From NCBI GenBank assembly GCA_026984455.1, contig JALSSC010000013.1, forward strand, positions 1-64,000: 64,000 nt of DNA, read 5' to 3'. The notes beneath the pieces were generated by a model, which made no database searches, had not been told where the DNA came from, and saw nothing but the letters and a program-made list of their open reading frames with translations. Source of the DNA: Chromatiaceae bacterium (GTDB lineage: Bacteria; Pseudomonadota; Gammaproteobacteria; Chromatiales; Chromatiaceae). This document shows, piece after piece, positions 7,746 through 12,209 of the stretch (its first letter is position 1; each line of letters starts with the position of its first letter). The position numbers were made by a program, and so were the translations under genes.

Positions 7746-8945
7746 ATGAAACCGATCAGCCGAACCTATACCGGAGTCCTCGGTCTCTCCCCCCTAGTCC
7801 TGGCCGGAGCCTGGGCCTCCGGCGTCGCCCCCCCCGACCTGGCCTGGGTCGCCCTGGGCATGGGCATCTGGGCGGCGGCCGGGGCCCTGGGGCTGCGCCA
7901 GATACGCGATCACCGCGCCCCCGAGGAGGAACGGACGGAAAAGGTCCACCTCCAGGAGGAGATGGAGGCCCTGGCCACCGAACTCGACCACGCAGTGAGC
8001 GTCACCGCGGACAATCTCTCGAACCAACTGGGACAGATCCGCGACCTGGTGGCCGACGCCATACAGACACTGAACGCCAGCTTCAACGGCCTGCAACAGG
8101 AATCCACGCGGCAGCTCGGGATCGTCCAGACCCTGATCCAAGAGATGTCCGATCCCGAGGAGGGGGAGGAGCGCATCTCCTTCACCACCTTCGCCCGTGA
8201 GACCGACCAGGTGCTCCAGGTCTTCGTCGGCCACGTGGTGGACATGAGCAAGGACAGCATGCTCATGGTGGAGCAGATCGACGACATGGTGCAGCAGATG
8301 GACGCCGCCGACGCCTTGCTGGCCGATGTCAAGACCATCGCCGACCAGACCAACCTGCTGGCCCTCAACGCGGCCATCGAGGCCGCCCGTGCCGGCGAGG
8401 CCGGCCGCGGCTTCGCGGTGGTGGCGGACGAGGTGCGCAAGTTGTCGCAACGCTCGAACCGCTTCAGCGACCAGATAAAAGAGGTCCTGGACGGTTCCCG
8501 CCAGAACATCGCCCGGGCGCGCGAGACGGTGGCCCACCTGGCCTCCAAGGACATGAGCTTCGCCATCCAGTCCAAGTCCAGGGTGGACCACATGATGCGC
8601 CAGATCGAGGCCATGAACGCCGAGATCAGCCGGCGCCTGAGTGAACTCTCGGGGATTGCCGACGGCATCGACCAGGCGGTGGGCGCCGCCGTGCGCTCCC
8701 TCCAGTTCGAGGACATCGTGACCCAACTGGCCGGCCACGGACAGCAGGGGATCGAAGGCCTCAGACAGCTCATCGGCGAGGTGCGAAACGAGATCTCGCG
8801 TGCCCACGCTACACCCCTGGCGGCGGCACGCCCGGCGGACAGTCTGGCCAGCCTGCGGCGGCGCCTTGCCGAGCATGAGACCACGGTCCCGCCCAGCCCG
8901 GTGACCCAAACCGCCATGGACGAAGGCGAGATCGAACTCTTCTGA
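7746..8945 (+). CDS. Methyl-accepting chemotaxis protein-like signal transducer
   Basis: The 399-residue protein has a hydrophobic hairpin at residues ~10-55 ([30 protein letters not shown]), then a long helical part without a visible ligand domain. The conserved hairpin tip of the MCP signalling domain follows: [20 protein letters not shown], then [18 protein letters not shown]. With almost no periplasmic loop, it probably senses a cytoplasmic or membrane cue. No che genes are in the window; the adjacent partner-switching cluster, 270 bp downstream, is its only signalling neighbour. The start was set at 7746 because the sequence before it in the same frame does not look coding. Confidence 0.8.
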
Positions 8946-9214
8946 CGTGGATGGTTGCCGGACCGCCTGAGAAGATGAGAGTCACGGGCGCCTGGGCATG
9001 GGAAAAGGCCCTCCCGCCCCTGCGGAGAGAGGAGCTGGGCTGAGGAGGAACCAGAGCACGGTCCCTGCGACCCTCACGGTAACAGAGGAATACGAAATCG
9101 GCGGCAGAGAGACTTCCGCGTGGTCCGACCTCGGTGGTACCGGAGAGTGACGTGTTGGTCGTACCTGGCCAACCGCAGTGATCCACGAAATCGAAAAACA
9201 ACAGGAGTAACAGC

Positions 9215-9520
9215 ATGGGCATACGCAGCAATATCTCGAGCGATGGCAAACGGCTCCAGATAGACATCGACGGACGCTTCGACTTTGCCAGCCACGATGC
9301 CTTCCGCGCGGCCTACCACGACCTGGACTCCCTGCCCCGGGAGATTCATGTGGACCTGCGCAAGGCAGAATACATGGACAGCGCCGCCCTGGGGATGCTC
9401 CTGATGTTGCGCGAACGGGCCGGAGGCGACGCCGCACGGATCGAGATCATCGATCCGCCCCCTGCGGTGCGGGACATCCTCCAGGTCGCGCGTTTCGATC
9501 AACTCTTCCGCATCCGATGA
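9215..9520 (+). CDS. STAS-domain anti-sigma factor antagonist-like protein 1
   Basis: A single STAS domain of 101 residues (SpoIIAA/RsbV/HsbA type). The phosphorylatable serine lies in the conserved loop EYMDSAALGMLLMLRERA (~residue 53). A good ribosome site (AGGAG) precedes the ATG. The stop overlaps the start of the REC-phosphatase gene (ATGA). In known systems such as HsbR-HsbA and Rsb, this protein is phosphorylated by an ATPase-domain kinase and dephosphorylated by a PP2C phosphatase. The next gene carries both activities. The target partner (anti-sigma factor or other) is not in the window. Confidence 0.88.
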   Translation: MGIRSNISSDGKRLQIDIDGRFDFASHDAFRAAYHDLDSLPREIHVDLRKAEYMDSAALGMLLMLRERAGGDAARIEIIDPPPAVRDILQVARFDQLFRIR

Positions 9521-11268
9521 ACACCGCCACGACCCTCGCCAGTGAGTCCCCTTCCAGGCGACCGCCCGGCACCACCCGCATCCTGGTGGTGGACGACAGC
9601 GTCGCCAACCGCCGTCTGTTGGTGGCCATGATCAAGGAGGCGGGTTACCGCGCCCTCACCGCCCGGGACGGCCTGGAGGCGGTCACCGCGGTGGAGCGCC
9701 TGCAACCGGATCTGGTCCTCATGGATGTGAACATGCCACGCATGGACGGCCTGGAGGCGGCCCGCCGGATCAAGCAGATCACCGGCGAACGCTTCACCCC
9801 GGTGATCTTCGTCACCGGCATGGGCGACCAGCGGGTACAGACCGATTGCCTGGCGGCCGGGGGCGACGACTTCGTCACCAAACCGGTGGAACTCCCCGTG
9901 CTCCAGGCCCGGGTCCAGGCCCAGTTGCGGACCGCCCGCCTGTACCGGGAACAATACGAACGCCGCCAGGAACTGACCTATTACCGCGACATGGCCGAAC
10001 GCGAACAGCACGTGGCCAAGCGGGTGTTCCGGGCCATCACCCGACGCGAGACCCTGGATGCCGCGCACATCCGTTACCGGCTCTCGCCCATGTCCACCTT
10101 CAACGGTGACTTGGTCCTGGCCGCCACCACCCCCGACGGCAACACCCACCTCCTGGTGGGCGATTTCACCGGTCACGGCCTGGCCGCGGCCATCGGTGCC
10201 CTGCCCGCCTCCGATATCTTCTACGCCATGAGTGCCAAGGGTTACACCATCGGCAATATCATCCGCGAGATCAACGACCGCCTGCACGGACTGCTGCCGG
10301 TGGGGATGTTCCTGGCTGCCTGCGGCCTGGAGGCCAACGATCACGAATGCATGTTGGAGGTCTGGAATGCGGGCCTGCCCGCTGCCCTCTGGTGCCGGAA
10401 GGCCCTGGGGCGAGTGGAACCGCTGCCGTCGATCTCCCTGCCCCTGGGAGTGGTGTCGTCGGCCGAGCTGGAGACGGCCCCCACACGCCACATCCTCGCC
10501 CCCGGTGACCGGGTGTTGCTGTACACCGACGGGGTCACCGAGGCCGAAGGGGCCGAAGGAGGCCAATACGGCGACCAGCGCCTACGCGCCCAGGTCGAGG
10601 CATTGCTGGGGCGCGAGGACCTCTTCGACCGGGTCCTCGCCGACCTGGACGCCTTCCGCGGAGAGACCGCCCAGACCGACGACATCACCCTGGTGCAGTT
10701 CGAGTCCCGCGCCACCCAGGCCGCAGGGATCGGGGCAGAGCCGCCAAGGGAGCCCACCAAGGCGGCCACCGCCCCGGCCACCACCTGGCGCCTCGGCCTG
10801 CGCCTGGAGGGCCCCGCCTTCCAGCGCTTCGATCCACGGCCTCTCGTGACCCAACTGGTGATGGAGATCCAGGGTCTGGACCCCCACAAGAACCAACTCT
10901 TCACCATTCTCAGCGAACTCTTCGCCAATGCCCTCGACCACGGCCTCCTCGGCCTGGATTCCGGTCTCAAGGCCGGCCCCGAGGGCTTCGCCCGTTACTT
11001 CGCGGAGCGCGAGGCGCGCCTCGCCGCCCTCAAGGACGGCTGGATCGATATCCACCTGAACCACGAGCCCGTCGGTGAGGGCGGCCGGCTCCTCCTCCGG
11101 GTGGAGGACAGCGGGCCGGGCTTCGACTATGCGGCTCACCTCCAGGCCCCACCCCCCGGACCCGAGGCCTTCAGCGGGCGCGGCATCACCCTACTCAGGA
11201 ACCTCTGTGCGGAGGTGCGGTACGAACCTCCGGGAAACCGCGTCCAGATCCGCTACGACTGGCCATGA
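9517..11268 (+). CDS. REC-PP2C phosphatase-HATPase partner-switching regulator
   Basis: The 583-residue protein has three domains. Residues ~20-140 form a receiver (RILVVDDS, phosphoacceptor D70 in VLMDVNMPRMDG, VTGMGD). Residues ~190-390 form a SpoIIE-type PP2C phosphatase (NGDLVLAA, VGDFTGHGLAAAIGALPASD, YTDGVTEAEG, DDITLV). The C-terminal ~130 residues form a GHKL ATPase (ELFANALDHGLLG, VEDSGPGFD, SGRGI). This is the layout of HsbR (Pseudomonas), which both phosphorylates and dephosphorylates its STAS partner. I infer that the receiver selects between the two activities. No cognate histidine kinase is nearby. It is coupled to the upstream STAS gene and followed after 27 bp by a second one. 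Confidence 0.88.
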   Translation: MNTATTLASESPSRRPPGTTRILVVDDSVANRRLLVAMIKEAGYRALTARDGLEAVTAVERLQPDLVLMDVNMPRMDGLEAARRIKQITGERFTPVIFVTGMGDQRVQTDCLAAGGDDFVTKPVELPVLQARVQAQLRTARLYREQYERRQELTYYRDMAEREQHVAKRVFRAITRRETLDAAHIRYRLSPMSTFNGDLVLAATTPDGNTHLLVGDFTGHGLAAAIGALPASDIFYAMSAKGYTIGNIIREINDRLHGLLPVGMFLAACGLEANDHECMLEVWNAGLPAALWCRKALGRVEPLPSISLPLGVVSSAELETAPTRHILAPGDRVLLYTDGVTEAEGAEGGQYGDQRLRAQVEALLGREDLFDRVLADLDAFRGETAQTDDITLVQFESRATQAAGIGAEPPREPTKAATAPATTWRLGLRLEGPAFQRFDPRPLVTQLVMEIQGLDPHKNQLFTILSELFANALDHGLLGLDSGLKAGPEGFARYFAEREARLAALKDGWIDIHLNHEPVGEGGRLLLRVEDSGPGFDYAAHLQAPPPGPEAFSGRGITLLRNLCAEVRYEPPGNRVQIRYDWP

Positions 11269-11295
11269 CCCCTATATATACAAGGAGACGAAACA

Positions 11296-11598
11296 ATGAG
11301 CATCACCACCCAGGAAACCCCGAGTGGCCGGATCCGCATCCAGATCAGCGGCCGTTTCGATTTCTCGTCCCATCAGGCCTTCTCCAAGGCCTACAAGAAA
11401 TATTCCCGGGGTGCATGCAACTACGAGGTGGACCTGGCCGAGGCGGACTACCTCGACAGCTCCGCCATGGGCATGTTGCTGCAACTGCGCGAACACAGCA
11501 CCCGGACCAAGGACGGCGTGATCCTCAAGAACCCCAACGAAGGGGTGAAGGAGATCCTGCGCATCGCCAACTTCGACAAGCTGTTCCAGGTCGTCTGA
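11296..11598 (+). CDS. STAS-domain anti-sigma factor antagonist-like protein 2
   Basis: This 100-residue STAS protein is related to the one at 9215: both share ISGRFDFSSHQAF / IDGRFDFASHDAF and the loop YLDSSAMGMLLQLREH, with the candidate phosphoserine at ~53. AAGGAGACG lies just upstream of the ATG. Two antagonists around one kinase/phosphatase suggest either a duplicated output or competition for one switch. The two are clearly paralogues but differ enough to contact different partners. Confidence 0.88.
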   Translation: MSITTQETPSGRIRIQISGRFDFSSHQAFSKAYKKYSRGACNYEVDLAEADYLDSSAMGMLLQLREHSTRTKDGVILKNPNEGVKEILRIANFDKLFQVV

Positions 11599-11600
11599 AA

Positions 11601-11626
11601 TATACCCGTCATACCTGCGACGGATA
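11601..11626. repeat. Minimal family A palindrome
   Basis: TATACCCGTC, a 6-bp loop and GCGACGGATA form an imperfect 26-bp palindrome directly after the second STAS gene. It consists of little more than the two ends of the family A element, so it may be an internally deleted copy. It could also act as a weak hairpin between the convergent genes. Confidence 0.45.
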
Positions 11627-11633
11627 GGCCCCG

Positions 11634-12209
11634 CTACTGCCTGATCAAGCGGTTACCGTCGCTGTGCTCGAAGCGACGGCCATAGATCTCCAGCCGGGTC
11701 GTCTCGCGGTATTCGAGGGCCTCGCCCCGTACCTCGATGCGATGTTCGAAGGCGGTAGTGCGGGCCCGATCACGCATGAACGGCGACTGCACGATGCCCC
11801 AGTCGGGATCGCCGAGGCGGGCCGAGACCTCCAGGATCACGACGCCACCCTGTGCAGACGAGGCCCTGTAACGGCCACCGGCAAGGACGCAGACCCCTCG
11901 TGGGATGGTCAGGGAGTGCATCAGGATGCCATTGGCGGCATCCCACATCCAATAACCCGTCTCGTTGTGGAAGACCTCGCCGTCGGCCTTGCGGCGCACC
12001 ACCTGGTGATAGCGCAAGGCGGCGAGACGCTGGCTCCCGGCGTTGGTCACCTCACCGATGGCCTCGAACCGCAGGGTCTCGTCGTAGGGGGTCTCCTCGG
12101 CCCCTTCCGGTGCCGGGGCCCGGTCCAGTCCCGTGTCACCGGCCCAGGTCCCTGCGAGCAGGGCCAAGGGGCCATAGTCCGGTTCATCGGCCGAATGAGG
12201 AAAATTCAT
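11634..12209 (-). CDS. Nitrobindin-like heme-binding beta-barrel protein (DUF1794)
   Basis: This 191-residue protein has the family start GPLALLAGTWAGDTGLDRAP and the PYDETLRFE, YHQVVRR, GYWMWDAANG and LTIPRG motifs of FABP-like nitrobindin/THAP4-type barrels. Some of these bind heme and react with nitric oxide or peroxynitrite. The usual C-terminal heme-ligating histidine is hard to place by eye (candidates are in AFEHRIEV or RFEHSDGN). The third in-frame start at 12209 was chosen because GGAGG stands 8 bases before it. It is divergent from the MBL-fold gene. Confidence 0.72.
   Translation of the reverse strand: MNFPHSADEPDYGPLALLAGTWAGDTGLDRAPAPEGAEETPYDETLRFEAIGEVTNAGSQRLAALRYHQVVRRKADGEVFHNETGYWMWDAANGILMHSLTIPRGVCVLAGGRYRASSAQGGVVILEVSARLGDPDWGIVQSPFMRDRARTTAFEHRIEVRGEALEYRETTRLEIYGRRFEHSDGNRLIRQ

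Follow-up and report, generated by a model that had tools for sequence, protein, structure and literature searches.

The window, a 64,000-nucleotide stretch of a Chromatiaceae genome, encodes a predicted partner switch of a known chemosensory kind. Its second adjacent antagonist is unusual and, by its placement among relatives, goes back to an old duplication within a single bacterial family. An ancestral F7-type chemosensory system, similar in kind to CrsR-CrsA but with a duplicated antagonist, probably has its output module here: a gene for a protein with receiver (REC), PP2C phosphatase and HATPase domains is flanked by two STAS genes, named STAS1 and STAS2 here.

The three genes are co-directional and located behind a chemoreceptor gene (Table 1), and the coordinates of an earlier sequence-only reading hold. 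The stop codon of STAS1 overlaps the start of the switch protein by four bases (ATGA), and STAS2 starts 27 bases past the stop of the latter, with an AAGGAG site ahead of its start; because of this overlap and spacing, the three genes likely form one operon. A scan for promoters and terminators gave no signal above that of shuffled sequences, and no sigma-70-like match was present in 8900-11800, including the 270-base gap between the receptor gene and STAS1.

Table 1. The switch block and the chemoreceptor gene ahead of it, in window coordinates.
Feature	Position	Strand	Length	Basis of the assignment
Short chemoreceptor (McpA-like by position)	7746..8945	+	399 aa	Pfam MCPsignal 99.3 bits; hydropathy; same place in the che clusters of relatives
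STAS1	9215..9520	+	101 aa	Position usual for CrsA/HsbA-type antagonists; Pfam STAS_2 61.3 bits (cut-off 29.2)
Switch protein (REC-PP2C-HATPase)	9517..11268	+	583 aa	Pfam domains; motifs; model and fold search
STAS2	11296..11598	+	100 aa	Pfam STAS_2 41.6 and STAS 40.4 bits; member of the family-wide second-antagonist group

The chemoreceptor contains two hydrophobic segments, the first beginning near residue 10 and the second near residue 32, and is therefore almost devoid of a periplasmic part, as had been proposed from the sequence. No che genes lie beside it. A plasmid similarity search returned 21 records, none with 80% query coverage, and the five matches listed all fall within the receptor gene, with 3% coverage apiece. 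The absence of an adjacent sigma or anti-sigma gene was likewise confirmed among the neighbors tested: a PMT_2-type membrane protein, a THAP4-like haem-binding protein, a metallo-beta-lactamase-fold protein and a histidine phosphatase. The C-terminus of the short chemoreceptor (8925-8945) reads EIELF. In the mapped loci, 37/46 short MCPs and 19/39 CheD frames have close endings of the form [DEQ]-[IVL]-E-L-F, and the gene preceding CheR on contig C57 of the source genome likewise ends in VELF; a docking tail shared for some common partner is possible.

All three domains assigned to the central protein by the sequence-only reading (receiver, phosphatase and GHKL-type) were recovered by Pfam above the cut-offs: Response_reg with 97.6 bits, SpoIIE/PP2C with 130.7 bits and HATPase_c_2 with a modest 34.0 bits for a cut-off of 27.4. 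The receiver phosphoacceptor is D70 (codon 9724-9726), accompanied by D27 and K122. The metal-binding residues of the PP2C domain are D198, D216, D338 and D388/D389, and ATP binding involves E467, N471, D531, G533 and G535. These motifs are intact, and invariant or nearly so across 27 sequences. Three features of a CrsR/HsbR-type protein are found together: REC, PP2C and HATPase_c_2 in one chain, the catalytic residues, and an adjacent STAS protein with a D-S motif. In an AlphaFold model (mean pLDDT 84), the pTM of 0.50 makes the relative placement of the domains unsure. A Foldseek search of the PDB matched this model to RssB over the receiver and PP2C part, and to the fused RsbU-RsbW part of Rv1364c.

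The two STAS proteins, immediately on both sides of this gene, are 41% identical, which agrees with their earlier description as paralogs. Neither reaches the cut-off of NCBIfam TIGR00377 (ant_ant_sig; 42.6 and 39.8 bits for 53.45); since both exceed that of Pfam STAS_2, they have a STAS domain without belonging to the classical SpoIIAA/RsbV family. The serine of the D-S motif, which we take to be the phospho-acceptor from SpoIIAA, corresponds to S56 of STAS1 (codon 9380-9382) and S55 of STAS2 (codon 11458-11460). It is kept in 34/34 STAS2 rows, in 15/15 STAS1 rows (14 of the tree group plus one of genome G030) and in 38/39 other rows, and both proteins look functional.

A tree built from 88 STAS rows (about 100 columns; deeper forks unresolved) places the window STAS2 in a group of 34 rows with support 97/98, all from the family of the window. 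STAS1 belongs to a separate group of 14 rows (98/93), also of one family. The STAS2 group is marked by two residues close to the serine: M58, in 33 of its 34 rows vs. 1/54 of the others, and Q63, in all 34 vs. 5/54. In the nine genomes with both proteins, mean identity is 49.4% for STAS1 and 58.5% for STAS2, and STAS2 is the more conserved in 32 of the 36 pairs, which are not independent. By its placement, STAS2 is an old, well-supported orthologous group of one family and not a local accident. A recent local copying of STAS1, considered as its origin, is ruled out by the two separately supported groups.

As a proxy for the STAS2 group, a match to STAS2 at E <= 1.2e-25 in the family search was used; the next scores, 4e-24 and weaker, come mostly from single-STAS clusters. 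Two truncated sequences that probably belong to the group score below the cut-off. Such a match is present in 70 of 210 family genomes, 54 of which also have the enzyme at E <= 1e-60, while 16 lack a full-length enzyme match. STAS2 is usually found in a che cluster, and outside che clusters in several loci, e.g., L146, L205 and L209. A direct STAS1-STAS2 tandem exists, by coordinates, in 18 genomes. Among the 13 mapped tandem loci, a short MCP lies directly ahead in 12, and CheB, CheD or CheR is present as well in 11. Where these genomes are placed in the enzyme tree, their enzyme is encoded elsewhere and is only of the orphan clade, which includes a second paralog of the source genome, encoded on contig C49.

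The window enzyme groups (96%, enzyme tree) with those of genomes G426-G428 and G450. These four have the order short MCP-enzyme-STAS2, without STAS1, so that STAS2 is the only STAS protein beside the resident enzyme. In the G450 enzyme, the match to the profile begins at position 109, so the receiver may have diverged or been lost. In G030 (L086:5859-7551), the gap between STAS1 and STAS2 holds only a 178-aa HATPase, which groups with the resident enzymes (95/92). This protein resembles a free-standing RsbW-like kinase, a remnant from which the receiver and the phosphatase are gone. Furthermore, several genera have STAS2 without STAS1. These arrangements are read as an ancestral STAS1-enzyme-STAS2 block that was later pared down in different ways, the window being the fullest version seen.

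Two further cases were encountered outside the family. G121 has a STAS gene on each side of the enzyme, one of them partial, whose placement in the STAS2 group is unresolved by the tree. G150 has a STAS-STAS-enzyme tandem, the two STAS proteins of which pair with weak support (93/65). The doubling therefore either arose repeatedly or has an older origin. Besides the window, only these two showed two STAS matches (E <= 1e-12) on one short stretch in a class-wide sample of 369 genomes, few of them of the family. The reverse, with a single STAS gene ahead of two tandem switch proteins or their REC-PP2C parts, is seen in L079:7478-11454 (G022), L221:7272-10839 (G547) and also L080. In L198, L205 and L209, a YchF-type GTPase gene lies 3' of STAS2, with a ParA-like gene 5' in L205 and L209; several other loci have a gene of comparable length after STAS2.

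The setting was mapped, with profiles built here, in the window and 90 stretches, mostly from other genomes of the family or class and some from the source genome. The order seen repeatedly is CheW-receptor-CheR-CheD-CheB-short MCP-STAS-switch protein; in some stretches, CheB and short MCP are swapped. A search with the PP2C and HATPase part found 566 relatives, and among the best 80, all named, a STAS gene is directly upstream of the switch gene in 75 and directly downstream in none (3 of the 80 stretches have <450 bases past the gene), and CheB, CheD or CheR is in the same stretch in 21. One STAS protein is indeed the norm for HsbR-type systems, as the sequence-only reading had it.

In the available part of PMC7184735, F7 "stage 1" clusters, such as those of Vibrio cholerae and Methylomicrobium alcaliphilum, end at the 3' side in an mcpA-like receptor, an anti-sigma factor antagonist and a serine phosphatase, as here. 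This synteny, in relatives and in F7 clusters, backs the earlier suspicion that the chemoreceptor may feed the switch. By synteny, the block would be the output end of an ancestral F7 cluster (CheA-CheW-Aer2-like receptor-CheR-CheD-CheB-short MCP-STAS-switch), the setting of CrsR-CrsA in Shewanella. Stage 1 clusters also have an extra antagonist, but at the 5' end, before cheY, whereas STAS2 follows the enzyme. The 5' antagonist of G309 still has a STAS domain, with D-T where STAS1 and STAS2 have D-S, and is missed by the STAS1/STAS2 profile at E 0.01; a displacement of this 5' gene is thus an unlikely origin of STAS2.

The stage 1 gene kinds are together in one cluster in relatives such as G309 and G426. 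In the source genome (2.83 Mb, 79 contigs), they are all present but split over contigs C70, C57 and C13, the CheA being a putative F7 member by synteny. On C70, CheY-CheA-CheW are accompanied by a gene for a PAS/HAMP receptor that is cut by the contig end. A ParA-like gene heads C57, together with a STAS-like gene and CheR-CheD-CheB; no other CheB match was found in the genome. The window block is on C13. We infer that these pieces form one F7 system, with the output module apart on C13.

Putative targets are also encoded: RpoS on C75, above the curated cut-off, and FlgM and FlgN on C49. FlgM is found in 67/70 STAS2 genomes vs. 73/140 others, a comparison confounded by shared ancestry. C49 also carries a second full-length HsbR-like protein, 42% identical to the window enzyme, beside a HAMP-type receptor (L058:4497-10413) and ~3 kb from flgMN; no STAS gene was found near it in the mapped locus. 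Its proximity to flgM/flgN recalls the flagellar setting of Pseudomonas HsbR. Two more STAS genes, one adjoining a PP2C gene on C55 and one near a HATPase_c_2 gene on C73 (L015, L009, L016), are therefore further partner-switch candidates.

From the domains, conserved residues, spacing, synteny, orthology and the presence of CheA, RpoS and FlgM, we infer the phosphotransfers, their order and the targets (RpoS and/or FlgM) as follows. Signals from the Aer2-like PAS-HAMP receptor, perhaps also from the short MCP, would set the activity of CheA, which would phosphorylate D70 of the switch protein and shift the enzyme from kinase to phosphatase mode. In kinase mode, the HATPase would phosphorylate S56 of STAS1 and S55 of STAS2; in phosphatase mode, the PP2C domain would take these phosphates off. 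The phosphorylation state of the antagonists would then determine the sigma factor that is retained, whether RpoS by the HATPase domain itself and/or FliA via FlgM. STAS1 would keep the ancestral partner position, in line with the general rule of the upstream position. STAS2 would be a second substrate, and the sole partner in some relatives: as the only adjacent STAS in four of them, it can presumably partner the resident enzyme. Two substrates might branch or compete, as the sequence-only reading suggested. Against an F7 output module stand the distance of the block from cheA in the source genome, where part of the cluster is cut off from view by a contig break, and the 16/70 STAS2 genomes without a full-length enzyme (E <= 1e-60), in which STAS2 is not strictly enzyme-dependent. 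The modest HATPase score, the TIGR00377 cut-off missed by both STAS proteins and the unsure arrangement of the model also weigh on this side.

The main rival explanation holds that there are two 1:1 pairs, one STAS protein working with the resident enzyme and the other with the HsbR-like protein of C49. With this second protein near flgMN, two STAS proteins for two enzymes are possible, the paralog being full length and without a STAS gene found nearby. The tandem genomes also favor such pairs: those placed in the enzyme tree have only an orphan-clade enzyme, and at least one STAS protein has to pair with it or go without any enzyme. However, G426 and G427 (and G428, 62% complete) have the resident enzyme and STAS2 but no second full-length enzyme; STAS2 therefore does not require the orphan enzyme. 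STAS1, moreover, overlaps the start of the resident one. We consider this pairing unlikely, yet a serious rival.

The persistence of STAS2 in the 16 genomes without a full-length enzyme match, several times outside che clusters, would fit an independent output read by another phosphatase or kinase, beside this enzyme only by history. STAS2, on the contrary, adjoins the enzyme in the window, G426-G428 and G450, and in G030 it adjoins the HATPase left over from the resident enzyme, which makes such an independent role rather improbable. STAS2 could also be an equivalent duplicate that alters only the ratio of antagonist to enzyme: the serine is kept in both proteins, and several genera have STAS2 but not STAS1. 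This seems improbable given the two well-supported groups, the STAS2-specific M58 and Q63 and the unequal conservation.

Compared with known systems, SypE-SypA of Vibrio fischeri also has a response regulator that combines a kinase and a phosphatase domain and targets a single STAS protein, but its receiver is central. In Chlamydia, RsbU and RsbW are separate proteins, and we know of no receiver or chemosensory link of the switch with RsbV1 and RsbV2. These are two biochemically distinct antagonists in one partner switch with RsbW (PMC11619594, available part), and two antagonists for one kinase are thus not new in principle. FlmD of Comamonas, considered as a parallel, was rejected: as described in the available parts of PMC6391922 and PMC8880074, it is a single-domain PilH-like regulator, with no STAS protein or switch phosphatase.

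The closest counterpart is CrsR-CrsA of Shewanella oneidensis, the same REC-PP2C-kinase/anti-sigma protein with an adjacent STAS protein, located in the Che1 (F7) locus and linked to RpoS (available parts of PMC9855816 and PMC6482189). CrsR-CrsA has one STAS protein, whereas the window block has two and lies apart from cheA. HsbR-HsbA of Pseudomonas aeruginosa, also described in PMC6482189, has the same architecture as the window enzyme but is fed by HptB, with one STAS protein for several targets: HsbA acts on HsbR/RpoS, FlgM and HsbD. The HsbR label of the sequence-only reading therefore stands for the architecture and not for the setting, which is the chemosensory one of CrsR-CrsA. Tentatively, the two jobs of HsbA in Pseudomonas may have been split here: STAS1 would be the antagonist of the anti-sigma domain of the enzyme, and STAS2 would serve solely to pass the phospho-signal on to a distinct flagellar target, later outliving the enzyme and STAS1 in whole genera. 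No description of an adjacent second STAS gene at a CrsR/HsbR-type gene was found in a full-text search of open-licence literature, judged by titles and the start of abstracts.

In 2020, the ancestral F7 system was still "of still-unknown biological function" (PMC7184735, available part). The family keeps two antagonist genes and FlgM (with RpoS looked at in the source genome), and loses the enzyme or one antagonist depending on the genus. Such natural experiments allow one to ask what is under the control of the F7 array, and in which way two antagonists share a single kinase/phosphatase.
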